A stretch of 33,381 bases of DNA from a virus, in the IMG/VR virus record IMGVR_UViG_3300012944_000042, positions 1 to 33,381 of that record; one strand, 5' to 3'. The position numbers were made by a program, and so were the translations under genes. Of the stretch, positions 1,927 through 32,793 are shown piece after piece. Under the pieces are notes generated by a model. It was not told the DNA's origin. It ran no database searches and saw nothing but the letters and a program-made list of their open reading frames with translations. Numbering within the stretch: position 1 is the stretch's first letter; the number at the start of each line of letters is the position of its first letter.

Positions 1927-1957
1927 AGATCAGAAGGTAACACTCCCTTCCGGATTG

Positions 1958-3418
1958 TCAACGCCCAAAGAGAGAAGCCATCGCAGCCTCAGCCCAATTC
2001 TGGTTAGAACGCATATAATTCAGTGCTTGCGTCGTCGTGTCCACGGTGTCGTCGTTCGCGCCCGCGGGGAAGGAAAGCATCTCTGCCTGGTGATGCACGA
2101 TCCACGGCGCGCGCTCCGGCGATGGGTGGAAGACATTCCTTGCCTCGAAGATTCCAGTGCAGCCGTTCGCCCTGCTGACCTTGCCTCCCTCTGGCTTCAC
2201 GCGGACGAGGTTCGTGATGATCGTGCTGTCCCCCTCGATCTCAATCCCCTGCTCGATGGCATCGCACGCTGCAGACCCATTAGCAGCCTCCTCGACGAGG
2301 ACGACCCTGGCCTGGGGCCACGCCGCCGAAAGGTCCCTGATGGCCTTCACCGTGGCAGTGAAGCCCCATTGCCCCCGGACCTGATCGAGGAGAAAGTACT
2401 TCACCCCCGCGCGGCCCCAAGCTTGCCCGACGACGAAGTCCGAAGTCTTGGATCCCTTGAAGGTGCAGTCGAAGGACAGAACGATCTCATCGAAGTCCGT
2501 AGGGAGCTCGTCCGCAGTCTGGAACCAATCGGCACGGAAGATGGCGCCGCCGGCGGGCGCCGGGCGTTGCTGAAGCTGGGCGGCCGCGGCCATCGGACCT
2601 AGGTCGAGCTCGAGCGCACGGACAGTCTCATCGGGGAAACGCTCGGGCCAGAGAAGCTCTCCCTCGATCGTCCGTGGGTCCGAGCCGAAAGGAGTCACGC
2701 AAGGGAACGCGGACTCGTACCTCATCGGCAGACGGAGGTGCACCCAATCCTCGTGCGCATTGTTCGCAAGGACATGTCCGACCAGATCTCTCTCGTGCAG
2801 GCGCTGCATGATGATGACCTTGACGCCCTTCGTTGGGTTCCGGAAACGGGTCGCGAGAGTGCCGCCCCACCAAGTGATCACGCCGTCGAGCGCCTTTGCG
2901 CTGTCCCATTGCTTCGGCTTCAGGGGGTCATCGACCGCGAGGCAATCGGCGTGCCGACCGCAAGCCTTACCCTGCACCGACGTCGAGAACCGGAACCCCA
3001 TATGGTTATTGCTGAAGTCGCTAAGGGCCACGGAGTTTGGGAGCTTGAATCGATTCCCCCATCGCGCCTGAAACCATGCGGATTGCATGATGTCGAACAG
3101 CTTGCCGGCGTCTCGGCGGGTCAGCCCCGCGTCGAAGGACGAGTTCAGAGAGCGATACCCGGGCTCGCGGATCCAGATCCACGCCGGGAAGAAGACGCTC
3201 ACGAGGAGGCTCTTCATGCAGCCCGGCGGGACGTTGATGATCAGCCGCTTGCAGTCCCCCCGGTGCAGCGCCTCGAGGTGCAAGCAGATAAGTTCGATGT
3301 GCCAATTCTCGATGAAGTCCGCACCGGGCTCGACGATATGCCATGCCATCCGAACGAAGTCGTAGAACGATCCTCGAAGCCCGATCTCTCTTTCTAGGTC
3401 GACGAGAAGGTTCGCCAT
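1958..3418 (-). CDS. terL: Terminase large subunit (TerL)
   Basis: This is the ATPase-nuclease motor that packages phage DNA into proheads. With the ATG at 3418 (486 aa), the P-loop PPGCMKS is at about 64-70, Walker B LAVDDP at 160-165 and the QRLHERDLVG segment near 205. The RNase H-like nuclease acids are SFD near 317, EE near 376 and GANDD near 456. AAGGAAG precedes this ATG. An in-frame ATG at 3451 would add 11 residues but overlap the upstream gene more deeply. The P-loop has Met where Gly is usual, a variant I recall from other phage terminases. No small terminase is recognisable nearby, and the capsid genes are far away on the other strand. Confidence 0.93.
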   Translation of the reverse strand: MANLLVDLEREIGLRGSFYDFVRMAWHIVEPGADFIENWHIELICLHLEALHRGDCKRLIINVPPGCMKSLLVSVFFPAWIWIREPGYRSLNSSFDAGLTRRDAGKLFDIMQSAWFQARWGNRFKLPNSVALSDFSNNHMGFRFSTSVQGKACGRHADCLAVDDPLKPKQWDSAKALDGVITWWGGTLATRFRNPTKGVKVIIMQRLHERDLVGHVLANNAHEDWVHLRLPMRYESAFPCVTPFGSDPRTIEGELLWPERFPDETVRALELDLGPMAAAAQLQQRPAPAGGAIFRADWFQTADELPTDFDEIVLSFDCTFKGSKTSDFVVGQAWGRAGVKYFLLDQVRGQWGFTATVKAIRDLSAAWPQARVVLVEEAANGSAACDAIEQGIEIEGDSTIITNLVRVKPEGGKVSRANGCTGIFEARNVFHPSPERAPWIVHHQAEMLSFPAGANDDTVDTTTQALNYMRSNQNWAEAAMASLFGR

Positions 3419-3552
3419 TCTTCCTTGCGTTTCTTCCAGCAGGGGGTGCATTCATGCCCGGCAAGGATCGGCACCCAGCCGAGCGACTGACAGCCGACGC
3501 AGGGCACCTCGTGATAGAGCTCCCCGTCCCGGATCATCTGCCGAGGTTTCAT
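3394..3552 (-). CDS. Zinc-ribbon microprotein (52 aa)
   Basis: The frame starts at 3552 in an ATGA overlap with the sigma-factor stop and ends at TAG 3394, just inside the terL start. It contains two Cys pairs, CVGC (18-21) and CTPC (35-38), followed by a basic WKKRKEEWR tail, which is a classic small treble-clef or zinc-ribbon pattern. Its position between the sigma factor and terL could fit a transcription or packaging cofactor (a small terminase has not been seen), but that is inference. Confidence 0.7.
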   Translation of the reverse strand: MKPRQMIRDGELYHEVPCVGCQSLGWVPILAGHECTPCWKKRKEEWRTFSST

Positions 3553-4307
3553 CTCATCTTTTCCTTGAACCATTCGACGAGGTCCGACACTTCATCGACC
3601 CGCAGCCAGGCCTTCTCTGCTACTTCCTCGTGGGACCAGCCTTCGGCCGACAAGGACAAGGCCTCGCGCTCGCGGGGGGAGAGTTCGGCCAGGGAGTCCG
3701 TGAACTCCTTCTCCAGGGCCGCACGCTCGGGGGACGCCGCGGGGTCGGTGAGGAGCTGTCCGAAGGCAAGGCGAACGGGGTGAAGGACGTGCCGGCAATG
3801 CATGCGCGTGCCTCCCTCGATGGGGACGCAATGAGGGATCCGCCGCCAGTTCTCGATCTTGTTCGGAGGCAATCCGAGGTCTTCCCCCGTAGCTTCTCTC
3901 CCATGCTGCGCGCGGAACGCATCGAGGGCACGGACGATCGGCGCCGGCATTCCTTCCTGGCGCGCGCGGTGGACGACATCATTCTTCGAGATAACGAGCT
4001 GGATCTCCCGGAGCGCCCAAAGGCGGGCATACCGAGTGAAGCATGCACCCGGATTCACGGCGCCCTTCGGCTTGCGCCAGCGACTGATCGCGACAAGGAG
4101 TCCCATGCGGCCGGCTTGCTGAAGGTCCTCGAAGTCCCGGAGGTTCGCGGGGAGGAATTTCTTCCTGTTGAACTTCTCGCAGATGCCCTTGATCAAGGGC
4201 TCGTACTGCTGAATGATCTGCGCCCGGATCATCTCCGCGGCCTTGCCTTTCGGGGGCAAGCGCTTCAGGCGATAGAGGAGGGCGGCTACGTCAAAGGGGG
4301 GTTTCAT
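3549..4307 (-). CDS. Sigma-70 family RNA polymerase sigma factor
   Basis: The 252-residue product has sigma region 2 at about 25-115: QYEPLIKGICEKF, then DFEDLQQAGRMGLLVAISRW for core binding, then FTRYARLWALREIQLVI where -10 recognition normally lies. A region 4 helix-turn-helix is at 205-252 (LSPREREALSLSAEGWSHEEVAEKA). A short region 3-like helix (AFRAQHGREATGEDLGL) links them. The ATG at 4307 overlaps the phosphoesterase stop (ATGA). Phage sigma factors redirect host RNA polymerase, usually to late genes. Region 2.4 is far from housekeeping sequences, so the promoter it reads should be non-standard. The repeated GCTTCAT element in the right arm is a candidate target (inference). Confidence 0.85.
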   Translation of the reverse strand: MKPPFDVAALLYRLKRLPPKGKAAEMIRAQIIQQYEPLIKGICEKFNRKKFLPANLRDFEDLQQAGRMGLLVAISRWRKPKGAVNPGACFTRYARLWALREIQLVISKNDVVHRARQEGMPAPIVRALDAFRAQHGREATGEDLGLPPNKIENWRRIPHCVPIEGGTRMHCRHVLHPVRLAFGQLLTDPAASPERAALEKEFTDSLAELSPREREALSLSAEGWSHEEVAEKAWLRVDEVSDLVEWFKEKMR

Positions 4308-5233
4308 CGTTGGACAATCGGGTAGAACTTCGAGGAGAACTCGCACGCGCGGCCGCGGCGGTCGACGGTGAACGTCAGGATCGATCCGCCGACATCCCAC
4401 GGACCGGTGATGCGATTGGCGAACTCGTAGCGCTTCATCTGAAAGGTACCCCCGGCGGCGCAGTAGATGTCTTCGGCGGCGGCGTGGAAGGCCGCATAAT
4501 GATGAAGATGCCCTGACAGGATCAGGTCCGTCGGGACGTCGAGCTTCTCCGCCTTGTTATTCAGCATGCGGCGGATGGCATTCGTCGTGGACGCCGCGCC
4601 CATGGGGTGCCAGAGATGCGTGCGCGCGCCGTGGAGGACCGCATTGCCGATGCACGTACCGGCGTGATGCCAATCGATGCCCTCGGCCTGCATGCGTTCC
4701 TCCGTGAGCCGACCGATGTCGGAGCCGATGGCATGGCTGGAGTAGCCATCGTGATTGCCCGAGATGGCCGCGATCGAGAAAGGACATCCAATCTTGACGA
4801 CGCGCTTCCAGATCTGAACGCCTTCGTCGATCTGCTCGTCTGCGCCGGTAACGCGCTGCTCTGGAACGAGGAGCGGCTTGACGCCGTCGGTGTTGTCCCC
4901 GGTGGCTGCGACGACTCGGCACCCTTCGCTCCACGCAAAGCGGAGGAAGTCGATCTGCCCTTGCTTGCTCGAATGCTTCGATCCCCAATGCGGGTCCGTG
5001 TAGTGCGCGATCTTGTAGCGCCCGGGCTTGGCCGTGCCGAGCGTGATCGTCGGGCCCGTGGTGACCGGCAGCTTCGTGAAGACGTTCTGTCCGACGATGT
5101 GGACGTGAAAGCCTTGCTCTTGCGCGGTCTTGATTGCTGCACGCAGCTCCCGTTCCGAGCAGACGAGCTTGAGGGTAAGCCAGCCGATCGACCGTGCGAT
5201 GCGACTAGTATGGTGGATGATGTCGAAGATCAT
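4304..5233 (-). CDS. Calcineurin-like metallophosphoesterase
   Basis: All metal-binding motifs of the family are present in the 309-residue product: DPH (80-82), GDN (112-114), GNHD (159-162) and GHLHH (241-245). The first 70 residues carry no recognised domain. These enzymes use two metal ions to cleave phosphomonoesters or diesters; phage members include RNA-repair and nuclease-like phosphatases. The substrate cannot be assigned. The ATG at 5233 overlaps the upstream stop (ATGA), and the longer in-frame extension would run through the nucleotidase gene. Confidence 0.87.
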   Translation of the reverse strand: MIFDIIHHTSRIARSIGWLTLKLVCSERELRAAIKTAQEQGFHVHIVGQNVFTKLPVTTGPTITLGTAKPGRYKIAHYTDPHWGSKHSSKQGQIDFLRFAWSEGCRVVAATGDNTDGVKPLLVPEQRVTGADEQIDEGVQIWKRVVKIGCPFSIAAISGNHDGYSSHAIGSDIGRLTEERMQAEGIDWHHAGTCIGNAVLHGARTHLWHPMGAASTTNAIRRMLNNKAEKLDVPTDLILSGHLHHYAAFHAAAEDIYCAAGGTFQMKRYEFANRITGPWDVGGSILTFTVDRRGRACEFSSKFYPIVQR

Positions 5234-5781: not shown

Positions 5782-6100
5782 CTTCGGAATCCTCGAGCCA
5801 GGGGGTTAGGGCCTGCACGATGGTCTCTTCGACCTCGGCATAGCGCTTGATCTTGAACACGTCACGCAGGGCGAAAGCAAGGCCGGAATGGTAGATCATG
5901 CAGTGCACGGACTCGTGCCGCACGACGGCGGGGATCAGGTCCGGGGGCGTGCCCTCGAGCACGTAGATCTTCCCGAACCAGGGCATGGCACATCCGGAGT
6001 TGAACCCGTCCTTCTCCTTGAGGTCAGGCACTTCTTTCTTCGAGGCCAGCCAGACCTCGTGGACGATGTCGCAGATCCGTTTCTTGCCGATGAGCTTCAT
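5774..6100 (-). CDS. Small HExxH metalloprotease-like protein (108 aa)
   Basis: The zinc-protease signature HESVH is at residues 62-66 in a helix (AVVRHESVHCMIYHSG). A downstream acidic cluster (AEVEETIVQAL, from 88) could give the third metal ligand. The N-terminus is basic and the C-terminus acidic (WLEDSEDE). At 108 residues it is only a minimal catalytic core, with no signal peptide, so it would act in the cytoplasm. The ATG at 6100 overlaps the upstream stop (ATGA). The longer frame to 6316 is antisense-like and rejected. No substrate can be named. Confidence 0.65.
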   Translation of the reverse strand: MKLIGKKRICDIVHEVWLASKKEVPDLKEKDGFNSGCAMPWFGKIYVLEGTPPDLIPAVVRHESVHCMIYHSGLAFALRDVFKIKRYAEVEETIVQALTPWLEDSEDE

Positions 6101-6321: not shown

Positions 6322-6599
6322 GGTGCCCTCCCCGCGTCCAATCGGATCGCCTTCTCCGCGAGCGCGCTTTCGAGCTGTCCGATGCTGATCACGCCGGCCT
6401 TGATCTCCGAATGAAAGAACCCCGTGACCGCAAAGAGCGCCAGGGCGACCAGGACGACGACCGGATCGAATCCGAGCCCCGTGGACACGCCGAGAGCAAA
6501 GGCGCCGGCAATGGCCGCCAGGTCCCGAAGGAGGAACTTCTTCGCTACGTCCTCTTCATGCTTCTCGATGTCGAGAAGCAGCTCATTCACTGTCGCCAT
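6318..6599 (-). CDS. Membrane protein with helical N-terminus (93 aa)
   Basis: A charged helical stretch (NELLLDIEKHEEDVAKKFLLRDL) precedes a hydrophobic region (AAIAGAFALGVSTGLGFDPVVVLVALALFAVTGFF) able to form two spans. A short soluble helix then ends in a basic tail. The ATG at 6599 lies 17 bases inside the upstream gene. A longer frame to 6665 would not fit the tiling. Together with the adjacent two-span protein it may form a membrane complex; this is inferred only from adjacency. Confidence 0.65.
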   Translation of the reverse strand: MATVNELLLDIEKHEEDVAKKFLLRDLAAIAGAFALGVSTGLGFDPVVVLVALALFAVTGFFHSEIKAGVISIGQLESALAEKAIRLDAGRAP

Positions 6600-6738
6600 T
6601 ATCTGTTCCCGTCGTGGCCATCTCGGCCCGGTCCCGTAGCTGGTACACCCCATCTTGCAGGACAACCTTGCCCTGAAGAATCAGCTCCTCGAGAGCCACT
6701 TGGTAGGCCTCGGGCATCGTGACGATTCGTATCCTCAT
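6583..6738 (-). CDS. Hypothetical protein (51 aa)
   Basis: The ATG at 6738 overlaps the stop of the diphosphohydrolase-like gene (ATGA). The sequence (MRIRIVTMPEAYQVALEELILQGKVVLQDGVYQLRD) looks like a small winged-helix or antitoxin-type fold. I cannot identify a family. The acidic tail ends TGTDNGDSE. Confidence 0.6.
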   Translation of the reverse strand: MRIRIVTMPEAYQVALEELILQGKVVLQDGVYQLRDRAEMATTGTDNGDSE

Positions 6739-7169
6739 GGCCGCACCGGATCGATTCCGTGCTTGATGGCCAGAATAAAAAGCGAGCAGCATGCCATGTG
6801 AGCAAGGTGAGGCAGACCCGACTCCGTGTCGTTGACCTCGCCCGAGCGCCATGCCTCGTAGTGCCGGAACATGGCCGCCTCGTAGCGCTCAACCTCGATG
6901 CCTTGCCAGTTGTTTGGCTCGTACTTCGCCGCGCCGAAGGTCATGACCTGCACGACGAGCTTCACGGCACGGAAGGGAAGCAGGTCCCATCGAAGCTTTC
7001 CCGTGTCGAACTTCCGCGCGCCGGCGGGGACGGGGTGCTTCTCTCCGTCGTAGAAGGCATTGCGCAAAGCAGAGACTGCTTCTGGGTGCCGATACTGATG
7101 CCCGGAGCAGTAGCCATGTTTCTCCTCCGATATGCCGCATAGAGCTACTTGGCAGATTCCTTCGTTCAT
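6735..7169 (-). CDS. dATP/dGTP diphosphohydrolase-like protein with zinc-knuckle N-terminus
   Basis: Residues 53-130 (KFDTGKLRWDLLPF, TFGAAKYEPNNW, AMFRHYEAWRSGE, GLPHLAHMACC) match the all-alpha family annotated as dATP/dGTP diphosphohydrolase (DUF5664, MazG-like). This family includes MazZ of phages with 2-aminoadenine genomes. The enzyme would hydrolyse purine dNTPs to dNMPs. The first 30 residues add a possible zinc knuckle (C6, C11, C21, H24) of the kind seen in HNH-associated proteins. AAGGA lies 8 bases before the ATG. The deoxyribonucleotidase is four genes downstream. No purZ or HD-type dATPase is visible here. Confidence 0.78.
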   Translation of the reverse strand: MNEGICQVALCGISEEKHGYCSGHQYRHPEAVSALRNAFYDGEKHPVPAGARKFDTGKLRWDLLPFRAVKLVVQVMTFGAAKYEPNNWQGIEVERYEAAMFRHYEAWRSGEVNDTESGLPHLAHMACCSLFILAIKHGIDPVRP

Positions 7170-8237: not shown

Positions 8238-10276
8238 TTAGGCTCCCAGGGGATCAATCGTCCGTTCGCGTCAAACGCCGGTTCTGCTTTCTTGTGCCAA
8301 GCGTGCATCAACAGCACTTCGATCTCCCCGAAGGGTACGTCCGGTACGAGCTCGTTCGCACCGATCCTCATGAGCCGGGCCAGCTCATATGCGGCTTCGT
8401 GCTGCATTGGCCCCCGGGGGATCTCCACCAGGAACTCGTCGTACACCACGGCCACGATCCGGGAGCCGTACAGGGGAGAGGCCTGGTCGACGTAACATGC
8501 CTTCATGATCATCCACGCCGCACGCTTCGTGCAGTCGCTGCCGGGGCCCTGGAACCACGTGTTGCACCACGCCGTGTAGTTCGCTCCTCCCCGGGAACGC
8601 TTCGATCGAGGGAGGTCCACGGTGCCGGACCCCGTGCGACACGCATCCCCAGCAGCGCGGAAGAGCTCGACCATCTCCGGGAACGTCGCCTTCCAGAGCT
8701 TCGTGTACGCTACGACCATCTTCAGGTCGACGTCGATGCCGTTGTTGGCAAGGTACTTGACGAACTTCTTATCCCCCATGCCCCCGGGCTTGCCGAAGTT
8801 GAAGACCTTCGCGATCTTGCGGGGAAGCCATCCCTTGTCCTTCGCGCGTTCGACCGCCTCCTCGTAGGAGATCTCCTCGAGGTTCGCCGCGAAGGCCGTG
8901 TGAGGATCGATGCCAGAGTTCAACATCTCCGCCAGCTTCGAGAACCCGAAGAGGTCTAGGCAGGATTGTCCCAGGGTGTGCAGCTCGAGCGCCGGATAGT
9001 CCGCTTGCGCGATGTCCCAGCCATCCCGGGCCACGAAGCACGGACGGACCGAGAGCTCGTCCCCGTTATCCGTCTCGATCGTCATGCCGCGCAGATTGTA
9101 AATGTTCGGCCCACTGGACGTCTCCCTGCCCGTTGCTGCGAGGCCGATGCGGCTCTGCACCGGGACGACCGCGCCCGCGAGGAGCATCGGGATATCCTTG
9201 GACAGAATATTACCGTAGGACGTGATCAGCGCATAGTCGGCCATGATGGGGTCATCCGCAGCCGCGCACGCGTCGGCATCCAGACAGACTTGCCCCTCGG
9301 GGAACTTCTTTGATGGGGGCGTCATGCGGACCTCGATACCCTCCTCGGCGCACGCGGAGATCATGGCCGCGGCCGCGGCTTTCAGATCCCTAGTCCCGTC
9401 CTTGCGCACGATACCGACCACCTGCAACCGCTCCTGTACCTGGACATGCGCGTGCACGGTGGCCGCCCGGAGTCGCTCGACCGCGACGGGATCTGTCTTG
9501 AGCCCTCGACAGCTCTGGAGATGCGCGCGGAACGCGGCACGGCATTGCTCCCACTGATTCTCGAGGTACTTCTCGTGGGCAAGCTGGCACTCATAGACCT
9601 CCAAGGCGGCCACGGCGTCCTCGATCGGGTACTCGATGCAGCGCTCGACCGGCGCCGTTAGCATCTCTTTCAGGTCGGCGTAGCGTTGCTTGACCTCGGA
9701 GTTGTCCGGATCGAGAAGCAGATTGTGCTCTGCGAGTCCGAACTCGGGCCGGTACTTGTCCTGCACCTCGCGTGCGTGCTCGACCCAATGCTGAATCGGA
9801 ACATCGCGGAACTCGGCATAGAACATGCGCCAGCCATCCTTGACCAGCGTCCGTTTCGAGAACCGTCGGGCGAGATCTGCCAACGAGTACTTTGGCTTGT
9901 ACCACTTGCCCGACTTGTCCAGCCATCCCGCGTAGAGTCCGCCCGCGATGTCGAGGAGCTTGGCACGAATCATCGTGTCCGTCACGCGGTTCTGATCGTA
10001 GGCGCGCACGACGAGCGGCAAGAGCTTCGGCCACTCGGCGCAGATGACGGCCATGTCGAAGGCGATGTTCTGCCCGACGAGGATGCACTCGGACTCCAGC
10101 CATTGGGTCAGGATCGGAAGGGCCGTCGAGTGGTGAGCGATCTGTCCCACGGAGAGCTCGTACAGCGCGCGGTCCCTCTGGATGGCCGACTGCCATGTCA
10201 CGCAAGTGATCGGTGGGGCGAGTAGCCCCGGAGCAATCAGGGCAGTTTCAGTGTCATAGGAAACAACGGAAGTCAC
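8234..10276 (-). CDS. Family A DNA polymerase with 3'-5' proofreading exonuclease
   Basis: The replicative polymerase has 680 residues. The exonuclease motifs are DTE (8-10), GQNIAFD (68-74) and YPIED (216-220). The polymerase palm has the GRETSSGPNIYNL segment (383-395), motif A QADYPALE (424-431), motif B RKIAKVFNFGKPGG (486-499) and motif C VYDE (611-614). There is no 5' nuclease domain. Motif C has Tyr where His is usual, and motif B ends PGG instead of the usual Tyr-Gly. The GTG at 10276 is chosen because it overlaps the upstream stop (GTGA) and starts just before exonuclease motif I. The 120-residue in-frame extension is out-of-gene translation. Confidence 0.93.
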   Translation of the reverse strand: MTSVVSYDTETALIAPGLLAPPITCVTWQSAIQRDRALYELSVGQIAHHSTALPILTQWLESECILVGQNIAFDMAVICAEWPKLLPLVVRAYDQNRVTDTMIRAKLLDIAGGLYAGWLDKSGKWYKPKYSLADLARRFSKRTLVKDGWRMFYAEFRDVPIQHWVEHAREVQDKYRPEFGLAEHNLLLDPDNSEVKQRYADLKEMLTAPVERCIEYPIEDAVAALEVYECQLAHEKYLENQWEQCRAAFRAHLQSCRGLKTDPVAVERLRAATVHAHVQVQERLQVVGIVRKDGTRDLKAAAAAMISACAEEGIEVRMTPPSKKFPEGQVCLDADACAAADDPIMADYALITSYGNILSKDIPMLLAGAVVPVQSRIGLAATGRETSSGPNIYNLRGMTIETDNGDELSVRPCFVARDGWDIAQADYPALELHTLGQSCLDLFGFSKLAEMLNSGIDPHTAFAANLEEISYEEAVERAKDKGWLPRKIAKVFNFGKPGGMGDKKFVKYLANNGIDVDLKMVVAYTKLWKATFPEMVELFRAAGDACRTGSGTVDLPRSKRSRGGANYTAWCNTWFQGPGSDCTKRAAWMIMKACYVDQASPLYGSRIVAVVYDEFLVEIPRGPMQHEAAYELARLMRIGANELVPDVPFGEIEVLLMHAWHKKAEPAFDANGRLIPWEPK

Positions 10277-12294: not shown

Positions 12295-12362
12295 TGCAAG
12301 AGGCAGGAATTGAACCTGCAACCCGGGTGTGATACCCTGCTCTACCATTGAGCCTCTCTTGC
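12295..12362 (-). tRNA. tRNA-like element with shortened anticodon arm
   Basis: The 68-base element has a perfect 7-bp acceptor stem (GCAAGAG with CTCTTGC), a 4-bp D stem (GCTC with GAGC) with loop AATGGTA, and a 5-bp T stem (GCAGG with CCTGC) with loop TTCAATT. The anticodon arm is only 13 bases, GGGTATCACACCC: four bases short, foldable as 3 bp plus a 7-base loop or 4 bp plus a 5-base loop. No U precedes the central TCA. CCA is not encoded (A then CTA). It is likely a degenerate or non-decoding tRNA, or a tRNA-mimicking processing signal. A UGA-reading role is conceivable from TCA but not supported. Confidence 0.65.
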
Positions 12363-12380: not shown

Positions 12381-12409
12381 CGTGAATCTACGTCACATCC
12401 CGAACGGTG

Positions 12410-12895
12410 TCAACCTCCGACGGGGTAGAAGTCCGGGTTGCTGTACGTACGGTCCGCCTTGTCGCCTTTGCCTTCGCGCGAGGTCATGCGGATCTTGACG
12501 AACTTGCCCGTGTAGATCTTGCCGTCATCGTTCTTACGGAGCTTGCCCGCGAACTCGGCCATGCACGCCTTCTGCTCGGCGACGGAGAGGCCCTTGCGAT
12601 CGATGTTCTCTGCCGCGAAGCAGAGCTTGAAGATCTCCTGAATCCCGACGGTGCCCTGGTCACCCGCCATGCCCTGATACCACGAGTGCTCGGCTCCGAC
12701 CTTGGTCTCGGTGCTGTCCGTCTCGTGGACGACGAATTCGGCGATGAACGCCGGACCCTTCTTCCGTGTGTCTTTCTCGAACATCTTCTTGATCTCTACG
12801 ATGTGCGTCCCGAGGGGGAGTGGCACGCCGCGTTCCGTGATCTTGACGTTCGCAATTGCTTCCGTTCCGAAAAGTTGCTCAGCGAGGCTTGACAT
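12410..12895 (-). CDS. Putative single-stranded DNA-binding-like protein (161 aa)
   Basis: The protein sits between the helicase/nuclease genes and the polymerase. It has a beta-rich core (ITERGVPLPLGTHIVEIKKMF, KKGPAFIAEFVVHETDS) and a long helix-containing middle. The tail is Lys/Arg/Asp-rich and ends NPDFYPVGG. The core layout and replication context resemble phage OB-fold ssDNA-binding proteins, but I do not see a diagnostic signature, so this is inference. The ATG at 12895 lies 17 bases inside the preceding lipoprotein gene. Confidence 0.5.
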   Translation of the reverse strand: MSSLAEQLFGTEAIANVKITERGVPLPLGTHIVEIKKMFEKDTRKKGPAFIAEFVVHETDSTETKVGAEHSWYQGMAGDQGTVGIQEIFKLCFAAENIDRKGLSVAEQKACMAEFAGKLRKNDDGKIYTGKFVKIRMTSREGKGDKADRTYSNPDFYPVGG

Positions 12896-13040: not shown

Positions 13041-14728
13041 CTATGCCAGATCTTACCCGGCTGGCTCTTGATGTCAAGCTCATTCGGCACAAGCACGTCG
13101 GCCAGATTGAGTTTCTGGGGCGCACCCATGAGATCCTCAGTCGCCCGGGCACCTTCGAGGGCGCGCTGGATGCCCTCCCAGTGCTCGAGACAGCCGACGA
13201 GCACGTCGACCGTGACCTGTTCGGACCGGTGATCAGATCGGTGCGTGCGGCCGATGAGCTGCTCCCACGGCTTCGGGCCGGGGTCGGGGGCGGTGATGAG
13301 GTTCCGATCCCAGGCCCGCTGGAGATCGAGGCCTTCGACGCACGCGCGGGACGAGGCGATGATGCACCCTGGCTTGGAGATCACGGCGTCATGGTAGGCC
13401 TGGAGATGCACGCCCTTCTCGTTCGTCGCGTCCTGTCCGAAGTAGGGCACCCCGGTCCTCCGGGAGAGCTCGTGACCGAAGAATCGATGGGACACCCAGA
13501 CGATGCCGGGCCCTTCGGCCATCCACTTCTCGCACACCTTGAGCGCTGTGTCATCGTGCCAGACATCCTTCGGACGGATCTGGAACGTGTCCTTGATCTC
13601 ATCCCAAAGTCGAAGTTCCTGTTGCCCTCCAATGCGGCCCGCGCGGACCGCGCTCTCGACCTCTCCGGGGGAGTCCAGGGTCCGGGAGTCCGAGAGGATC
13701 TCCCGAACGAAGCCGGCCCATACCGAGCGCGCGATCAGCCATTCCGGCGGTGCTCGAGGATCCCAGATGCCGTGAAAGCCGATGGCGAGCTGCCGTGCAT
13801 ACATCCAGATCTGGTTCATGTCGGAAAACGCCCAGCCATCTGGCGTCTTCTTGTCCTTCCGGAGCTTGGTCATGTGCTGCTCCACGATCGCGGAAGGCTG
13901 GTACATGATCGCCCGGACGTAGAGAGAGGCACCGACCTCCGTGGCCGTCGCGCCGACGACGCCAGGCGTCTCCAGGAGCCTGTCTCGGAATCCCTGTCGC
14001 ACGTCCTCGAGGTCATCGCTGCCTCCGGACCACTTCGTCAGGGCGCCCGGATGCATGCGCTTGTATTCTGGGATGTCCCGGTCGAGCGCCGAGGCGAATT
14101 CCTCTGTTTCCTGCCAGCCCTTCGGTACCGGAGCGCCCTCGCCGAGCGCCCAGCGGCAGGTCTTCGTCAGGTCCTTGATCGAGCGCACGAGGAACGTCCC
14201 CGACGCAGCGGCAAACTTGGTGTCCGGGTAGGCATCGAGGTACCGGCCGACACGCCGCGTGACCGCGGCCTTCGGGTTCTTCAGCCGATGTGCCTCGTCG
14301 CAGAAGATGCCGTCCGGGCGTAGCCCTTCGAGAAGCCCCTTGCCCGATTCCGTTCCGAGGCGATCGTAGGACCACATCGTGATGTTCTGCGCGATGCGCC
14401 AATGCGTCGTGAGGTCCTGCTGATTCTTCCGCACCTTCTCGATGAGCGAGGCGGGCATGAGCAGCAGGGGACGTTTGAGTTCGAGCACGTACGGCGCCAA
14501 GAGGAAGATCAGAGTCTTCCCTCCGCCCACGGGGATAGGCGCGAACAGGCCGCCATTCTCCGCGAGCTCGATGAGCGCCTGGGCCTGGATGGGCCGGAGC
14601 TTCCAGGTGCCGTAGCGTGTCTTGAGGACGTCCGTGAGCTCGGCAGTGATCTCTTCCCAGTTCCGGTCCTTGCGCCGGGGGAGGGCATCAATGCGGAGGA
14701 ACTCCGGGGTGCGGGCGATCGCCCTCAT
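13037..14728 (-). CDS. SF2 DNA helicase / SNF2-like ATPase
   Basis: The 563-residue protein has LRPIQAQAL (45-53), a P-loop VGGGKT (67-72) and a DEAH box FCDEAHRL (142-149). An SGT motif III follows, and GRTHRSD (about 490-499) gives the arginine finger of motif VI. This is the two-RecA-domain layout of superfamily 2 translocases used in phage replication or recombination. The ATG at 14728 overlaps the upstream stop (ATGA). The longer frame to 14929 is the reverse of the membrane-protein gene. It neighbours a Cas4-like nuclease, suggesting end-processing or recombination. Confidence 0.88.
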   Translation of the reverse strand: MRAIARTPEFLRIDALPRRKDRNWEEITAELTDVLKTRYGTWKLRPIQAQALIELAENGGLFAPIPVGGGKTLIFLLAPYVLELKRPLLLMPASLIEKVRKNQQDLTTHWRIAQNITMWSYDRLGTESGKGLLEGLRPDGIFCDEAHRLKNPKAAVTRRVGRYLDAYPDTKFAAASGTFLVRSIKDLTKTCRWALGEGAPVPKGWQETEEFASALDRDIPEYKRMHPGALTKWSGGSDDLEDVRQGFRDRLLETPGVVGATATEVGASLYVRAIMYQPSAIVEQHMTKLRKDKKTPDGWAFSDMNQIWMYARQLAIGFHGIWDPRAPPEWLIARSVWAGFVREILSDSRTLDSPGEVESAVRAGRIGGQQELRLWDEIKDTFQIRPKDVWHDDTALKVCEKWMAEGPGIVWVSHRFFGHELSRRTGVPYFGQDATNEKGVHLQAYHDAVISKPGCIIASSRACVEGLDLQRAWDRNLITAPDPGPKPWEQLIGRTHRSDHRSEQVTVDVLVGCLEHWEGIQRALEGARATEDLMGAPQKLNLADVLVPNELDIKSQPGKIWHR

Positions 14729-17177: not shown

Positions 17178-17211
17178 CCTCTCGATGAAGCAAGCGCCTT
17201 GACCGCTTCAT
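17178..17211. promoter_or_regulatory. Divergent control region with two opposed GCTTCAT elements
   Basis: GCTTCAT occurs on the minus strand at 17191-17185 (within TTGCTTCATCG) and on the plus strand at 17205-17211, pointing away from each other. If each is a -10 element, transcripts would start near 17177 (leftward operon) and 17219 (primase gene). Both downstream genes have Shine-Dalgarno sites inside the short leaders. No conventional -35/-10 pair was found here by eye. Confidence 0.5.
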
Positions 17212-17257
17212 TGCGCCGTGGCACGGTATCGTGGGCATATTGCCCGCTAGGAGACTT

Positions 17258-19453
17258 ATGCCTGTATTGTACCCGTTGTCCTTCACCCCTGGCGTCAACG
17301 CCAAAAGTTCCGTCGTGCGCGGATGCGTCCAGATCGATTGGGACGAGTTCGTCACGATGCCCCCCGAGGCCGATGGCAAGCCAAAGGAGGCCTACGACTT
17401 CATCTTTCCCTCTCGGTTCGAGCCCGCCGTCCGAAACGAAGCCAACTGCCGCGAGCTATGGGCTGCTCGGTTCGACGTCGACAAGGAGACGGTGGAGGAG
17501 GGCGCGCTCCGTTCCGTCCTGTCCGAGTTCCAAGCCGTCGCCTGGACGTCCTTCTCGAGCACGCCGGAGGCGCCGCGATGGTGCGTCTGGATCGTGCTCG
17601 AGCGCGTGCCGACCAAAGAGGAGTATGCGGCCACCGTCCGAGACCTCTGCTCTCGCATTCCGGGCGCTTCGACGGGGCAGACCGACATGTCCCGCGCGCG
17701 CATCGTCCCCGTGGCCCGTCCGGGCTTCCGCCGGTTCGTGACGGAGGGCAGACCCCTCAAGGTTCTCGATGCTCCCGCGGCCGCGCCCTGGATCGAAAAG
17801 GCCAAGGCCGATCCTCTCTGGGACCGCGTCGGCCAGCCGGACGTCCCCGCGGCGCGGGCGATCATGAAGGCTCAGGGCTTCCCGAAGGAGGACACCTACG
17901 AGCTCCGTCGCCTCCTGGCCAGGACGATCAACTCCGCCGGCTTCTCCCCCTGGGAGGCCCTGTCCTTCACGTCCGAGGACGGCGGCGTCGAGGAGAAGTG
18001 GGTCGCGCCCATGCTTCGATCTGCGGTGTCCGGCGGGGTTGCGCTGAACCGGCATTGGCCGGCGGCGACGATCTTCCTGGCCGCCCTCGGCATCGTTCCC
18101 TTCGGTTCCGTCGAGGCGGAATTGCTCAAGCCCAAGCCGGCTGCGATCGAGGTGCCGGACACCCCGGCGAATCTGCCACCCCTGCGCGTCAAGGATCCGA
18201 AGCATGAATACTCGTACCATCCGACGTTCATCGCCGCGACCGATCTCCGCAAGACGAATCACACGTCCGTGATGACTGCCCTGATCTCCCTCCCCGACTG
18301 GGAGGGCGTCCTGCGCTGGAACTCATTCTCGAACCGCGCAGAGGCAATCGATCCTCCCCTTGCCCTCGATGCGGAGAAAGGCATGGGTATCAGCAAAAAC
18401 GATCTCACCCTCATGCGCTCCTGGTTCGCTTGGAAGCTCGGGGTCTCCGTCAAGGAGGACGACATGCGTGCCGCCGCGCAGGCTGCTGCCAAGGCCCAAT
18501 CGTACCATCCGGTCCACGACTACTTCGCTGCCTTGCCCGTGCTGTCCCGAGAGCAATCGGAGACCGTCCTCGGGGGCCTCGCTGGACGCCTCTTCGGCGC
18601 GGTCGATCAGCTCGAGGAGGTCTTCCTTCGCAAGTTCCTGATCCAGGCCGTCATGCGCATCCTGGAACCCGGGTGCAAGGCCGATAGCGCCCTCACGCTC
18701 TATGAGGCCGATGGGGGAATGAAGAAGACGATGTTCGTCCGTGTGCTTTTCTCCTCGGCATGGTCCGCGCCCTACGGCAAGACGACGATAGGCGACATCG
18801 AATCGGCACGGAAGCTCGTCGGTAAATGGTGCCTCGAGGTCGCGGAGATGGCGGCCATGCGGAATGCGCAGGTCGAAGACGTCAAGGCCTTCATGACGAC
18901 GGAAGCAGATTGGCTGCGCGACATGCATGACGCCACGTATTACGACAGGAAGCGCGAATGTGTGCTGATCTGCACTACGAACGACAAGAACATCTTCCAC
19001 GATGACGCACATGAGCGACGATTCTGGGTCATTGAGGTCCGCAAGATGATCGATGTCGAATATTTGGCGAAGCACCGAGACCTCATCTGGGCGGCTGCGT
19101 TGTCGTTGGCGCTCTCGGGGGAGCAGTATTGGCTCACGGAGCAGGAGAAGGGCATCGCCAAGGTCGGACTCAAAGAATTCCGCGACCTCGATGCATGGTC
19201 CGAATCGATTGCCGTGTACTGCCAGGGCAAAGATACAGTGAAGGTGTCTGCCGTCTGGGCGTACCTTTCGAAGGCAGAGGAAGGATCCCTAGACAAGGTC
19301 AAAGAGATGCGCATAACCTCCGTGCTGAAGCGCCTAGGAGCAAAGAAGGGCACCAATGGGATCTATCGGTACTGGATCGTCCCTGAGTTTCTGGCTAAGG
19401 CCAAGCCAGCGGACACGCCCAACGCCCTAGCAGCCAAGCTCAAGCAGAACTAA
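17258..19453 (+). CDS. Primase-helicase: AEP-like N-terminus and VirE-type SF3-like helicase
   Basis: The 731-residue protein has an N-terminal region with an archaeo-eukaryotic primase look: FDVD (72-75), TSFSSTPEAPRWCVWIVLE (97-115) and DMSRARIVPVARPG (143-156). Its C-terminal half is a virulence-associated-E type P-loop ATPase. This starts near 415 (YHPVHDYFAALP) and has the P-loop region EADGGMKKTMF (about 484-494). TTNDKN and ERRFWVIEV lie near 570-592. Such fusions prime and unwind DNA at phage origins. The P-loop has Lys where Gly normally precedes the Lys. AGGAG lies four bases before the ATG at 17258. It begins the rightward arm and is followed by a strong terminator and the origin-like region. 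Confidence 0.85.
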   Translation: MPVLYPLSFTPGVNAKSSVVRGCVQIDWDEFVTMPPEADGKPKEAYDFIFPSRFEPAVRNEANCRELWAARFDVDKETVEEGALRSVLSEFQAVAWTSFSSTPEAPRWCVWIVLERVPTKEEYAATVRDLCSRIPGASTGQTDMSRARIVPVARPGFRRFVTEGRPLKVLDAPAAAPWIEKAKADPLWDRVGQPDVPAARAIMKAQGFPKEDTYELRRLLARTINSAGFSPWEALSFTSEDGGVEEKWVAPMLRSAVSGGVALNRHWPAATIFLAALGIVPFGSVEAELLKPKPAAIEVPDTPANLPPLRVKDPKHEYSYHPTFIAATDLRKTNHTSVMTALISLPDWEGVLRWNSFSNRAEAIDPPLALDAEKGMGISKNDLTLMRSWFAWKLGVSVKEDDMRAAAQAAAKAQSYHPVHDYFAALPVLSREQSETVLGGLAGRLFGAVDQLEEVFLRKFLIQAVMRILEPGCKADSALTLYEADGGMKKTMFVRVLFSSAWSAPYGKTTIGDIESARKLVGKWCLEVAEMAAMRNAQVEDVKAFMTTEADWLRDMHDATYYDRKRECVLICTTNDKNIFHDDAHERRFWVIEVRKMIDVEYLAKHRDLIWAAALSLALSGEQYWLTEQEKGIAKVGLKEFRDLDAWSESIAVYCQGKDTVKVSAVWAYLSKAEEGSLDKVKEMRITSVLKRLGAKKGTNGIYRYWIVPEFLAKAKPADTPNALAAKLKQN

Positions 19454-19460
19454 CCGACCG

Positions 19461-19486
19461 AAAAGCCCCGCGAACCGGGGCTTTTT
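19461..19486 (+). terminator. Rho-independent terminator after the primase-helicase
   Basis: AAAAGCCCCG (19461-19470) and CGGGGCTTTT (19476-19485) pair over 10 bp around a CGAAC loop, and the right arm runs into a T-tract ending at 19486. It lies eight bases after the primase stop, so it separates that transcript from the structural genes. Confidence 0.92.
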
Positions 19487-19496
19487 GCTGTCCACC

Positions 19497-19935
19497 CCCT
19501 ACGACCCCAAGGGGGGTAGTAAAGAAGCTAACTCCCCGACACCATTCCCTTATTACTACCTTACTACCTTTTATATATATATAGGTATACAGTATAGCCC
19601 TAGGGGGAGGGGTAGGAGGGCGGGGGGTACCCCTGGCTGAATAGCCCATAAGGGGGAAGGGAGGTAGTCAGCCGTAAATTGGGAATTCCTCAATGATATC
19701 AACCCCCATCTCAAAAGAGGTGGTCGTAACGGGATGGGGGCTAGACCCCCCAATCACCTCCCAGTCCGATCGGTCTGACATTCCCTCTGTAACTTTACTG
19801 CGAGCAGTGTAACGCAAAGGTCCTATGGCACGGGCCTTGCATGAGCCCCTACCGATCGGACTAATTGTCCAAGGTCCTAGCTAAGGAATTTAAGCCGATC
19901 GGTAGGGACTGAAACTGTTACGGTTGCAGTCGTCG
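19497..19935. other. Non-coding region, candidate replication origin
   Basis: About 500 bases between the terminator and the DUF2213 gene have no plausible gene. They contain a tandem TTACTACC repeat (19553-19568) with an inverted copy (19515-19522), and a 26-base AT tract (19571-19596) that would melt easily. An 8-bp inverted repeat lies at 19703-19710/19733-19740, ACTGC-GA-GCAGT at 19797-19808, and three CCGATCGG copies start at 19766, 19852 and 19895. An AT-rich unwinding tract plus iterated palindromes next to a primase-helicase gene is the usual layout of a phage origin. Function is inferred; a regulatory or packaging site is possible. Confidence 0.5.
19847..19907. repeat. 13-base perfect inverted repeat containing CCGATCGG
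   Basis: CCCTACCGATCGG (19847-19859) is the exact reverse complement of CCGATCGGTAGGG (19895-19907), with a 35-base spacer. A third CCGATCGG at 19766 shares AGTCCGATCGGT with the left arm read in reverse. The spacing suits binding sites for an initiator or repressor dimer. Confidence 0.7.
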
Positions 19936-19937
19936 GA

Positions 19938-19952
19938 TGCTTCATTTGCGTC
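19938..19952 (+). promoter_or_regulatory. GCTTCAT start element before the DUF2213 gene
   Basis: TGCTTCATTTG lies with its GCTTCAT at 19939-19945, exactly 7 bases from the ATG at 19953. There is no Shine-Dalgarno sequence. This is one of seven start codons in the window with this arrangement, and the geometry matches a -10 element driving a leaderless mRNA. Confidence 0.6.
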
Positions 19953-21032
19953 ATGCAGTGGAGGATAGATGTAGTGGGGGGGATGGCCCCCAACCTGTCG
20001 CGTACGCCATCCGGAGGCATCCGCGTCCCCGCGAACCTCACGCGAACCGGAGTGTTCGTATACAAGAACGCAGATGGGACTACATCCAGGGAGCTCAGGC
20101 ACCCGGAGCAGGTCTTCGCCGCGGACTCATTGGCCAGCCTGGCCGATGCCCCTGTCACCGTCGGACACCCCGGCGTGGTGACGGCAGAGAGCTGGAAGGC
20201 CGACTCCGTGGGCCATGTCCGTGACGTGCAGCAGGATGGGCGCTTCGTTGCCAGTCAGTTGATCGTTCAGGACTCGAAGGCCGTCTCCAGGGTCATGAGC
20301 AAGACGGACGACAGGCTCACGGAGATCAGCTGCGGGTACCAATGCACGGTCATCCCGGAGCAAGGCGTCTTCGAAGGAGAGCGCTACGATTCCCGCCAGA
20401 CGGCAATCAGGTACAATCACGTCGCCCTCGGCCCGAAGGATTGGGGTCGTGCGGGCAATGACGTGAAGATCAAGCTTGACTCTGGTGAAGAGGTATGTAT
20501 TGGCACCTGCTTCATTCCAGCCATGACGCTCGACGAGGCGCTGGCACTCATCAAAGTCCAGCAAGACAATCTCGCGTCGCTGAAGAGCGATAGCGACAAG
20601 ACTGCGGCCGAGCGCGACACGCTCAAGGTCGAGAACGACAAGCTTCGCGCCACCACGGACGCCCTCAAAGCCGATTCATCGGAAGAGAAGTTCGCCTCGC
20701 GCGTCGATGCTCGTGTTGCCCTCCTCGAGGGCGTTCGCCAGGTGCTCGGAGAGGTCGATAAGACCAAGTCCGATGCCGAACTCACGATGGTCGTGCTGAC
20801 CAAGCACGACTCGAAGTTTGACCCGAAGGGCAAGTCGCAGGACTACCTTCGCGCGCGCTTCGATGCCGTCATCGAGCAGTATGCCAAGGGCCAGTCGAGT
20901 CTCGCGCGCGTCGCTGAGAACTTCGGCAACGCCTTCGCGCAGGATGCCTCGGGCGCCAATGAGTCCCTCACGGAGAAGGCGACCCGCGAGTTCAAAGAGA
21001 AGCAAGCGAATGCTTGGAAGGTGAGCAAGTAA
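19953..21032 (+). CDS. DUF2213 family prohead protein (probable protease-scaffold)
   Basis: The first 185 of 359 residues match DUF2213: TRTGVFVYKNADGT, DSLASLADAPVTVGHP, SVGHVRDVQQDGRF, then ISCGYQC, YDSRQTAIRYNHVALG and RAGNDVKIKLDSG. Members sit before capsid genes and are thought to be prohead proteases or scaffolds. The second half is a long charged coiled coil (LASLKSDSDKTAAERDTLKVENDKL) and a helical tail, typical of a scaffold. The ATG at 19953 is set by the upstream GCTTCAT element, and no better start is present. An internal start at 20523 would release the scaffold half alone. Confidence 0.82.
   Translation: MQWRIDVVGGMAPNLSRTPSGGIRVPANLTRTGVFVYKNADGTTSRELRHPEQVFAADSLASLADAPVTVGHPGVVTAESWKADSVGHVRDVQQDGRFVASQLIVQDSKAVSRVMSKTDDRLTEISCGYQCTVIPEQGVFEGERYDSRQTAIRYNHVALGPKDWGRAGNDVKIKLDSGEEVCIGTCFIPAMTLDEALALIKVQQDNLASLKSDSDKTAAERDTLKVENDKLRATTDALKADSSEEKFASRVDARVALLEGVRQVLGEVDKTKSDAELTMVVLTKHDSKFDPKGKSQDYLRARFDAVIEQYAKGQSSLARVAENFGNAFAQDASGANESLTEKATREFKEKQANAWKVSK
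20508..20522 (+). promoter_or_regulatory. Internal GCTTCAT start element inside the DUF2213 gene
   Basis: TGCTTCATTCC (20508-20518) lies within the coding sequence, at the CFIP codons. Its GCTTCAT is exactly 7 bases from an in-frame ATG at 20523. The nine-base core is identical to the copies that precede the starts at 19953, 22824, 25659 and 32794. Confidence 0.5.
20523..21032 (+). CDS. Nested scaffold protein, in-frame internal start (169 aa)
   Basis: The ATG at 20523 is codon 191 of the DUF2213 gene and in the same frame. It begins MTLDEALALIKVQQDNLASL, exactly where the protease-like domain ends and the coiled-coil half begins. Many phages make scaffold protein from the 3' half of a protease gene through an internal start (lambda C/Nu3 is the best known). 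The GCTTCAT element at the right distance is the added evidence. Whether the shorter protein is made is not shown by sequence alone. Confidence 0.5.
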   Translation: MTLDEALALIKVQQDNLASLKSDSDKTAAERDTLKVENDKLRATTDALKADSSEEKFASRVDARVALLEGVRQVLGEVDKTKSDAELTMVVLTKHDSKFDPKGKSQDYLRARFDAVIEQYAKGQSSLARVAENFGNAFAQDASGANESLTEKATREFKEKQANAWKVSK

Positions 21033-22537: not shown

Positions 22538-22569
22538 GGCCCCGCGACTGAAAGGTCCGGGGCCTTTTT
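22538..22569 (+). terminator. Rho-independent terminator after the capsid gene
   Basis: GGCCCCG (22538-22544) pairs with CGGGGCC (22558-22564), followed by five T. The loop contains a further GAC/GTC pairing. It lies 24 bases after the capsid stop and could limit read-through so that capsid is over-expressed relative to fibre genes. Confidence 0.88.
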
Positions 22570-22807: not shown

Positions 22808-22823
22808 TGCTTCATTCGCGCTA
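22808..22823 (+). promoter_or_regulatory. GCTTCAT start element before 22824
   Basis: TGCTTCATTCG (22808-22818) lies 8 bases (from the end of GCTTCAT) before the ATG at 22824, with no Shine-Dalgarno sequence. Spacing is one base longer than in the other copies. Confidence 0.55.
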
Positions 22824-23210
22824 ATGGCTGGGACCTACAATCTGACGATTCATCCGGGAGAAAGTGTCGATCTGTCTCTCGTCTGGTCGATAGGTAGCGT
22901 GCCCGTCAATCTCACTGGTTACACCGCGTCCGCGTGCGCGCGTAAGGGCGCCGGCCCGGACTTCGATTCGCTCTTCCGCTGGGACAGCCCGGCGAGAATC
23001 TCCCTGGACAGCAGCGGGAACATCAAGCTCTCCGTGCCAGGCTCCGAGACGTTGCCCCTTTGGTGGCATGCACCGGTGTTTGACGACAAGGGCGGGGGCG
23101 GGCGCAATCGACACATGGGAGGATGGTGGGACCTGTATCTCACGTCCCCAACGAATGTCACGAAACTCCTTCTTCAAGGGCGGGTGTTCTTCGTTCCTTC
23201 GGTGTACTAA
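22824..23210 (+). CDS. Structural protein, Ig-like / baseplate-type (128 aa)
   Basis: The sequence YNLTIHPGESVDLSLVWSIGSVPVNLTGYTASACAR, then GNIKLSVPGSETLPL and LLLQGRVFFVPSVY, follows a beta-sandwich pattern common in small phage proteins that precede fibre genes (a G-x-x-x-x-L-x-W-x-x-x-x-x-P-V-N-L-TGYTA motif). It likely joins fibres or acts as an adaptor. The start follows a GCTTCAT element. The stop TAA shares its last A with the next ATG. Confidence 0.55.
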   Translation: MAGTYNLTIHPGESVDLSLVWSIGSVPVNLTGYTASACARKGAGPDFDSLFRWDSPARISLDSSGNIKLSVPGSETLPLWWHAPVFDDKGGGGRNRHMGGWWDLYLTSPTNVTKLLLQGRVFFVPSVY

Positions 23211-23596: not shown

Positions 23597-24468
23597 GTTT
23601 CAAGAGCTACGTAAATATCGACCTACAAGGGAATAAAGTCACGGGCCTCGCGGACGGCACGAACCCGACCGACGCTACGACTAAGCAGCAGCTCGACGCC
23701 GCGCTGATCGGGTTGTCCTGGAAGGATGCGGTCAATGCTGCCAGCACGGGGAACATCAATCTCGCGGCGCCCGGCGCGTCCTTGGATGGGTACGCGTTCC
23801 AGTCCGGGGATACGTTCCTCGCGAAGGACCAAACGACCGATAGCGAAAAAGGGCCATATAACTGGAACGGCCCCTCGACTCCTGCGACCCGGACATTGAG
23901 TGGTTCGACGTTCGTCGCCCTCCAGGGCGCGGCCATGAAGGTCATCAATGGCACGGTCAATGGTGGCCTGAACTATACGAACTCGGTGCAGCTCACATCA
24001 TTCACGGGACAGCTCTGGGTCCTTGGCCCGAGCTCCTTCTCTGCGGGCAACGGACTCGTGTCCACGGGCAGCGCGGTCAATGTCGTGACGGGAGACACGT
24101 CGCTCGTCGTCAATGCGGACGAGATGCATGTCGGACTCAACGCCGCCGGCGGACTCCAGACGGCATCCGGACTCGGGGTCAAGCTCAACGGTACGACCCT
24201 TACGGTCGGCGCCTCGGGCCTCAGTGTCACGACCCCCGTCGACAGCACGGTCGCGCGCGTGGCCACGACGGCCGGCACCGGAACGGGCACGACGTTTACC
24301 TTCACGCATAACCTCGGCAAGCTGTTCCCGATTCCTTGCTGTCAGCTCATCAGCACGCATGAGGTCATTGGCGTGGACGCCGCCGGCGACGGCACGGGGA
24401 ATGCCACGGTCTTTACGTTCGCCTCGAGCCAGACACTGAGCAACTATCAATTCACCGTGGTGGGCTAA
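23593..24468 (+). CDS. Tail-fibre-like protein (291 aa)
   Basis: The N-terminus SYVNIDLQGNKVTGLADGTNPTDATTKQQLDA is the module used by phage fibre proteins to attach and trimerise. Further on are a Gly/Thr/Ser/Ala-rich, beta-structured shaft and the FTFTHNLG segment at the C-terminal domain. Both junctions are overlaps (ATGA and TAATG). It probably helps bind the host surface. Confidence 0.65.
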   Translation: MSFKSYVNIDLQGNKVTGLADGTNPTDATTKQQLDAALIGLSWKDAVNAASTGNINLAAPGASLDGYAFQSGDTFLAKDQTTDSEKGPYNWNGPSTPATRTLSGSTFVALQGAAMKVINGTVNGGLNYTNSVQLTSFTGQLWVLGPSSFSAGNGLVSTGSAVNVVTGDTSLVVNADEMHVGLNAAGGLQTASGLGVKLNGTTLTVGASGLSVTTPVDSTVARVATTAGTGTGTTFTFTHNLGKLFPIPCCQLISTHEVIGVDAAGDGTGNATVFTFASSQTLSNYQFTVVG

Positions 24469-25643: not shown

Positions 25644-25658
25644 TGCTTCATTCGGACA
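25644..25658 (+). promoter_or_regulatory. GCTTCAT start element before the neck protein gene
   Basis: TGCTTCATTCG (25644-25654) in the 20-base gap between genes. GCTTCAT ends exactly 7 bases before the ATG at 25659. No Shine-Dalgarno sequence is present. Confidence 0.6.
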
Positions 25659-31471: not shown

Positions 31472-31499
31472 ATCGTAACCCAGGGACGGGACCTGTCAA
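31472..31499 (-). promoter_or_regulatory. Sigma-70-type promoter for the lipoprotein gene
   Basis: A perfect TTGACA and TACGAT (4 of 6 to TATAAT) with a 16-base spacer, on the minus strand. The likely start falls at or next to the ATG at 31465, so the mRNA would be almost leaderless. It overlaps the stop of the BNR protein gene. Confidence 0.5.
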
Positions 31500-32761: not shown

Positions 32762-32793
32762 AGGGAGAATGAAGCAGCTGCTTCATTCGGGAC
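32762..32793. promoter_or_regulatory. Back-to-back GCTTCAT elements forming a perfect 22-bp palindrome
   Basis: GAATGAAGCAG (32767-32777) and CTGCTTCATTC (32778-32788) are exact reverse complements with no spacer. Each strand carries GCTTCAT exactly 7 bases before a start codon: ATG 32794 on plus, ATG 32761 on minus. The palindrome could also be a binding site for a dimeric regulator. Confidence 0.65.

Follow-up and report, generated by a model that had tools for sequence, protein, structure and literature searches.

Does this virus carry its own sigma factor, and if so, which promoters would that factor read? The question was raised by a first-pass annotation of the 33,381-nucleotide stretch of viral DNA analyzed here (the window), which described the open reading frame (ORF) at 3549-4307 as a sigma-70-like protein with regions 2 and 4 and put it forward as the candidate reader of a recurring heptamer, GCTTCAT. 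The description of the protein held. The ORF is on the minus strand, encodes 252 amino acids, and is flanked by the genes for the terminase large subunit and a metallophosphoesterase. Both curated Pfam profiles scored above their cut-offs, Sigma70_r2 (PF04542) at 5.5e-6 and 26.5 bits and Sigma70_r4_2 (PF08281) at 2e-6 and 27.8 bits, making regions 2 and 4 detectable. With a profile built from the window sigma and its relatives, the top match among solved chains was FliA (9wsm; E 4e-25, 223 positions); the window sigma as a lone sequence aligned to FliA over regions 2-3 only. An AlphaFold (AF2) model with a mean pLDDT of 74.5 resembled open-complex sigma factors in the PDB. Regions 2, 3, and 4 in the absence of regions 1.1 and 1.2 are the arrangement of group 3 (FliA-like) factors. 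From the Pfam matches, the profile, the AF2 model, and syntenic homologues, the product is a sigma-70-family factor of the FliA-like type.

Close homologues of this protein were not found by direct searches. A tblastn search with the window sigma against 50,697 phage records (E 1e-3) returned zero matches, as did a search of viral contigs with the sigma protein alone and a search for relatives with the window helicase as the query. None of 80 bacterial-genome loci with a related terminase contained a clear homologue; the best candidate among them, at 6335-7051 of a Nostoc contig (L196), looks like a different sigma factor. That gene, near a related terminase, may mark a cyanobacterial prophage with a sigma of its own. 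Relatives of the virus were recruited through the major capsid protein.

The heptamer itself is enriched, with 14 copies in the window against 4.1 expected, a count reached in none of 100 shuffles. Several copies are incidental, and in this respect the annotation needed revision. We rejected as promoter elements those at 6094 and 13034, which are reverse complements of ATGAAGC start codons, those at 4432, 25493, and 26440, which are intragenic, and one at 28823, which is probably intragenic. The true unit is the 9-mer TGCTTCATT, which occurs at eight sites when one change is allowed (one site reads CGCTTCATT and one TGCTTCATC).

At six of the eight sites, the 9-mer is followed by six nucleotides, or once seven, and an ATG. 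The site at 19938..19946 (+), downstream of a terminator, precedes by N6 the ATG at 19953 of the head maturation protease gene, the first gene of the late operon. The next, at 20508..20516 (+), is N6 from an internal ATG at 20523, in frame within this DUF2213 protease gene. A scaffold protein nested in the protease gene is expected by analogy with lambda C/Nu3, and the start at 20523 is by the same analogy probably that of a nested scaffold protein; nested starts with their own motif are also found inside the protease genes of two relatives, G002 (36244) and G006 (38799). The remaining start-proximal sites are at 22808..22816 (+), with N7 to the ATG at 22824; at 25644..25652 (+), with N6 to the ATG at 25659 of a gene for a DUF4054 protein; at 32779..32787 (+), with N6 to the ATG at 32794; and at 32768..32776 (-), with N6 to the ATG at 32761 of a gene for a BNR-repeat protein.

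The last two of the eight sites lie between divergent operons, where the heptamer is present on both strands exactly as annotated, at 17185-17191 (-) and 17205-17211 (+). The CGCTTCATT site (17204..17212, +) is upstream of the helicase gene at 17258, and the TGCTTCATC site (17184..17192, -) is upstream of the minus-strand operon that comprises a PD-(D/E)XK nuclease gene and the genes beyond it. The Shine-Dalgarno leaders reported for these divergent genes are present as Shine-Dalgarno-like sequences, TAGGAGA before 17258 and GCGAGGGG before 17159. A 10-codon leader frame at 17218-17250 (+), running from GTG to TAG and encoding MARYRGHIAR, begins 5 nt past the CGCTTCATT box and stops just before the helicase Shine-Dalgarno sequence.

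The spacing to start codons is far from random. In the window, the pattern GCTTCATT-N5..7-[AG]TG has 7 matches, whereas Markov-shuffled sequence averages 0.06. In 3.8 Mb of comparison loci, there were 13 chance-like matches, several of them copies of one site. Among viral contigs, at least 80 stretches matched CTGCTTCATTC-N5-ATG, with single hits as chance predicts and no second carrier among the matches listed. A Shine-Dalgarno sequence is present at none of the six motif-led starts, whereas 19 of the 33 other starts in the window have one. In leaderless genes, a TANNNT box precedes the start codon by about 12 bp (PMC3160421), and at the six genes, TTCATT begins 12-13 nt before the ATG. Setting TTCATT at -12 to -7 puts the A of the ATG at +1. 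We found no conserved -35 element at the window sites; the sole upstream conservation is a T at -15 and a G at -14, which bears out the suggestion that the element might be of the extended -10 type. From these sequence features, TGCTTCATT is very probably a promoter of the extended -10 class.

The constant spacing at six genes that have no Shine-Dalgarno sequence could also be expected if GCTTCATT were a translation-initiation element, that is, a non-Shine-Dalgarno ribosome-binding signal located 6-7 nt before the start codon. We consider this highly improbable. The annotation had favored a promoter role over a translation role, and its argument that the motif also occurs at leadered genes stands, with two sites well upstream of Shine-Dalgarno-led genes. 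Two other sites form a palindrome that serves divergent genes. Further, TATAAT-like boxes are found at equal spacing in relatives, some of them followed by a Shine-Dalgarno sequence, as at 29411, 31369, and 36598 in G006, where the box is upstream of the leader. The window also has TTGACA-N16-TANNNT boxes of its own with N6-N7 to the ATG, a geometry shared with the TGCTTCATT sites. A promoter thus accounts for both settings of the element: at six genes, transcription would begin on the A of the ATG or on a neighboring nucleotide, giving leaderless mRNAs, and at the divergent operons it would begin further upstream, ahead of the Shine-Dalgarno leaders.

The palindrome at 32767-32788 is perfect over 22 bp (GAATGAAGCAGCTGCTTCATTC) and consists of two back-to-back TGCTTCATT boxes (32768..32776, - and 32779..32787, +). 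The two ATGs, 33 bp apart, each lie six bases outside a half-box, so that the palindrome can serve a divergent pair of leaderless genes, although not both simultaneously. A search of viral contigs with the 20-mer palindrome gave three low-GC chance matches, which we discarded as a signal of relatives. This palindrome and the inverted pair at 17184-17212 would also suit a half-site bound by a promoter-covering phage protein, whether repressor or activator. That explanation is very unlikely, given that four of the eight sites are single copies with constant orientation and spacing to the downstream ATG, and an operator would have no need of N6-N7 to an ATG. Symmetric-sequence bidirectional promoters are known from E. 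coli and Salmonella plasmids, according to excerpts of PMC12825309 and PMC10268837. Relatives have overlapping divergent boxes with a CTAG core (G004, 6490/6493; G012, 28777/28780; G001, 45361/45369) or a divergent box pair (G006, 42598/42650); sites of bidirectional promoters are thus a repeated feature of these phages.

As a check on the pairing, the annotation had proposed asking whether this sigma subtype and the motif occur together in related phages. A PF04542 sigma was detected in 9 of 41 records: the window, G001, G002, G004, and G006, in the last four of which the gene adjoins or is near the terminase large subunit gene; two more long contigs with homologues, G012 and G014; G005, whose sigma is RpoD-like; and G016, whose sigma is distant. 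We ranked every heptamer that has one free position or none in noncoding DNA N5-7 before ATG or GTG. The top heptamer in the window was CTTCATT (p 7e-10). CTAGNCT was at the top in G012 (p 6e-18) and G004 (p 2e-12), as was CTANCCT, also rendered CTA[GT]CCT, in G001 (p 2e-9). GTANACT was found in G014 (p 3e-6) and in G006 (p 1e-10), where it is the promoter motif and ranks behind TCGNGGT, a repeat artifact. In G002, TAANCTT (p 1e-7) and GTAANCT (p 2e-6) were at or near the top. In each of the seven long contigs that encode a homologous sigma, the motif is specific to the phage but of the same class, with no -35 element and at the same distance to start codons. The remaining 32 of the 41 records had no PF04542 sigma, and no phage-specific -35-less motif class was seen among those examined; sigma-less contigs mostly gave Shine-Dalgarno sequences or nothing clear, and some gave host-type promoters. 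The annotation had named relatives that lack the sigma gene but keep the motif as evidence against the pairing, and none was seen among the sigma-less records examined. A rank test of the 7 sigma-bearing against 35 other contigs gave p 6e-5, to be read with the facts that the contigs are non-independent, that the 35 include many partial loci, and that the G006 entry is a repeat.

Two other motifs in this comparison were set aside. The strongest motif of a sigma-less record, TTATCTT in G024, is a host promoter because TTGACA lies about 17 nt upstream; near-identical leaderless TTGACA-N17-TATCTT promoters precede several genes of this record (L136; 8975, 9871, 18507, 18808, and 19407, -). G016 at first resembled another sigma-motif pair, but its GAATCAT copies are tandem operator-like repeats, and its more distant sigma is accompanied by no leaderless motif. 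These partly palindromic GGGAATCAT repeats, at 10153-10177, 18415-18435, and 23824-23839 (L262-L264), are near gene starts and are probably operators.

The start of the orthologous protease gene allows the boxes to be compared at one place. It reads TATAAT-N6-GTG in G005, TATCCT-N6-GTG in G001, TAAGCT-N6-GTG in G002, TAAACT-N6-GTG in G006, and CATAAT-N6-ATG in G008. The TTCATT box of the window appears to be the same object in other letters, and a -10-like box at the same place in relatives is further support for a promoter.

The reader of the -10 box could also be a host factor, an alternative sigma of the FliA or ECF type. The host, whichever it is, could supply such a factor, and the pairing of the phage sigma with the motif was drawn from sequence. 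We regard this reading as unlikely: the motifs vary from phage to phage and track the sigma beside the terminase gene, and relatives that lack the sigma have TTGACA/TANNNT promoters or Shine-Dalgarno sequences instead. The claim that the phage sigma reads the motif is thus supported by co-occurrence in relatives; because no close relative shares GCTTCATT, we infer the reading itself. Weighing against it are the points that the pairing of the window sigma with TGCTTCATT comes from one genome plus analogy, that the relatives' motifs keep TANNNT, which host sigmaA could read, and that G016 is an exception to the co-occurrence. The reading we prefer, and consider probable, is that TGCTTCATT is an extended -10 element (TG at -15/-14, TTCATT at -12 to -7, and no -35) recognized by host core RNA polymerase with the phage sigma. 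For phage 7-11, the promoters of the sigma had earlier been predicted by computation (PMC4331800), and experiment did not confirm that prediction (PMC8948821). Because that prediction differed from the mapped promoters, our confidence is high for the promoter role and more measured for the assignment to the sigma.

The lack of a -35 element has a counterpart in the proteins. Upstream of the box, column information in G001, G002, G004, G006, and G012 showed no excess over random. In the C-terminal helix of region 4, which reads the -35 box in sigma70, the canonical RERIRQ of RpoD is replaced by LRVDEVSDLVEWFKEKMR in the window and is absent in the other sigma-bearing phages too; the RpoD-like sigma of G005 keeps SRERIRQ. 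In region 2, the alignment shows Y430 and W434 kept in the window sigma, with R at T429, L at W433, R at Q437, and Q at T440. In sigma70, Y430 and W433 hold the flipped A-11 (PMC4496690). The box of the window is the only one in the set that does not have an A at -11, and the changes near the A-11-holding residues fit this loss but do not prove a connection. A correlation between region 2.4 residues and motif is suggestive only and is contradicted by G014, whose sigma has no aromatics at these positions (V430, N433), yet whose motif keeps A-11.

A second promoter class is present in the window. It has four exact TTGACA-N16/17-TANNNT sequences where 0.13-0.15 are expected. Every one is on the minus strand, and these consensus host promoters are a class separate from TGCTTCATT. 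Two have N6-N7 to an ATG, namely, TTGACA-N16-TACGAT at 31472..31499 (N6 to the ATG at 31465) and TTGACA-N16-TACCTT at 1934..1961 (N7 to the ATG at 1926). The other two, on the same strand as the sigma gene, lie upstream of it: TTGACA-N16-TAAGAT at 13050..13077 and TTGACA-N17-TAGATT at 12385..12413. Directly behind the latter is a tRNA-like gene (12295-12362, -; Rfam RF00005, 50 bits) that was missed by ARAGORN and has a 4-bp anticodon stem with a 5-nt loop (ATCAC). Intrinsic terminators, each with a T run, follow the helicase gene before the late operon (19459..19487, +; fold -18.9 kcal/mol) and the major capsid gene (22538..22564, +; -21.9 kcal/mol). In the proposed sequence of events, transcription by host sigma70 would come first and cover the early genes of the minus strand, that of the sigma among them. 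The phage sigma would then switch on the helicase, head, scaffold, and tail genes at TGCTTCATT sites and reinforce its own operon from 17191 (-).

Two other features of the noncoding DNA were recorded. An AT-rich island at 19560-19600 (TTTTATATATATATAGG), in a genome of 61% GC, lies in the 480-bp gap before the late operon and may be an origin or an early promoter. The window has the octamer TGGCACGG at 11 positions (6267, 7749, 11941, 17219, 19826, 23949, 29469, and 30200, +; 10804, 12170, and 23039, -), with five copies in noncoding DNA, where 0.2 are expected. Its sequence is similar to the -24 element of sigma54 promoters, but the copy at 17219 showed no -12 partner.

The window sigma shares regions 2, 3, and 4 and the lack of region 1 with FliA (sigma-28), its closest match among solved structures by profile. 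The -10 element of FliA is long and begins with GC (GCCGATAA), as does the element of the window. The window sites differ from the FliA class, TAAA-N15-GCCGATAA, in having no -35 conservation, and thus no TAAA, and a different -10, TGCTTCATT; the sigma itself is phage encoded, and its region 4 helix is noncanonical.

The closest known system, judging from excerpts of PMC4331800 and PMC8948821, is that of phiEco32 gp36, a phage sigma that reprograms host core polymerase, as proposed here. In both phages, promoters are single elements without a -35 (transcription starts 6-8 bp downstream in phiEco32), the sigma gene is in a minus-strand cluster, and the plus strand carries the structural genes. 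In the window, host-type promoters are confined to the early strand, where they are also found in phage 7-11, a relative of phiEco32. As in a phiEco32-type regulon, -35-less promoters serve the structural genes of the window. The phiEco32 motif, tAATGTAtA, is unlike TGCTTCATT; gp36 has no recognizable region 4, whereas in the window sigma this region is present, although its recognition helix is degenerate; and the leaderless geometry of the window is not described for phiEco32 in these excerpts. The tblastn search of 50,697 phage records (E 1e-3) likewise showed no homology to gp36 or phiEco32-like phages. Phage 7-11 also has a diverged sigma, SaPh711_gp47, with its own promoter class, which is bipartite (GTAAtg-16-aCTA), whereas the window has no -35-like element (PMC8948821). 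SaPh711_gp47 and gp36 are 15% identical and use different promoters, such that, from one related phage to another, the sigma and its promoters change in step (PMC8948821). The leaderless TANNNT promoters of Actinobacteria and Deinococcus-Thermus resemble those of the window in that the -10 box puts the transcription start at the start codon, and those of M. tuberculosis also have no conserved -35 (PMC3160421, PMC3898074); TTCATT differs from TANNNT in having no A-11 and in the TG at -15/-14.

For this family of metagenomic phages, we judge the chances to be even that the terminase-adjacent sigma covaries with a leaderless -10 motif devoid of a -35, that the window sigma opens promoters without A-11, and that late transcription is in this way orthogonal to host sigma70 in the same genome. 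A promoter fused with the start codon would free the late genes of the virus from the need for a -35 element and a ribosome-binding site. The phages form a natural series of sigmas with candidate promoters (TTCATT, TAGNCT, TATCCT, and TANACT), all without a -35 and mostly leaderless, in which the sigma residues that determine -10 specificity, and the need for A-11, can be studied. The series also suggests simple orthogonal transcription parts, and the relatives' own sigma-motif pairs make it testable how viruses rewire the host transcription machinery.
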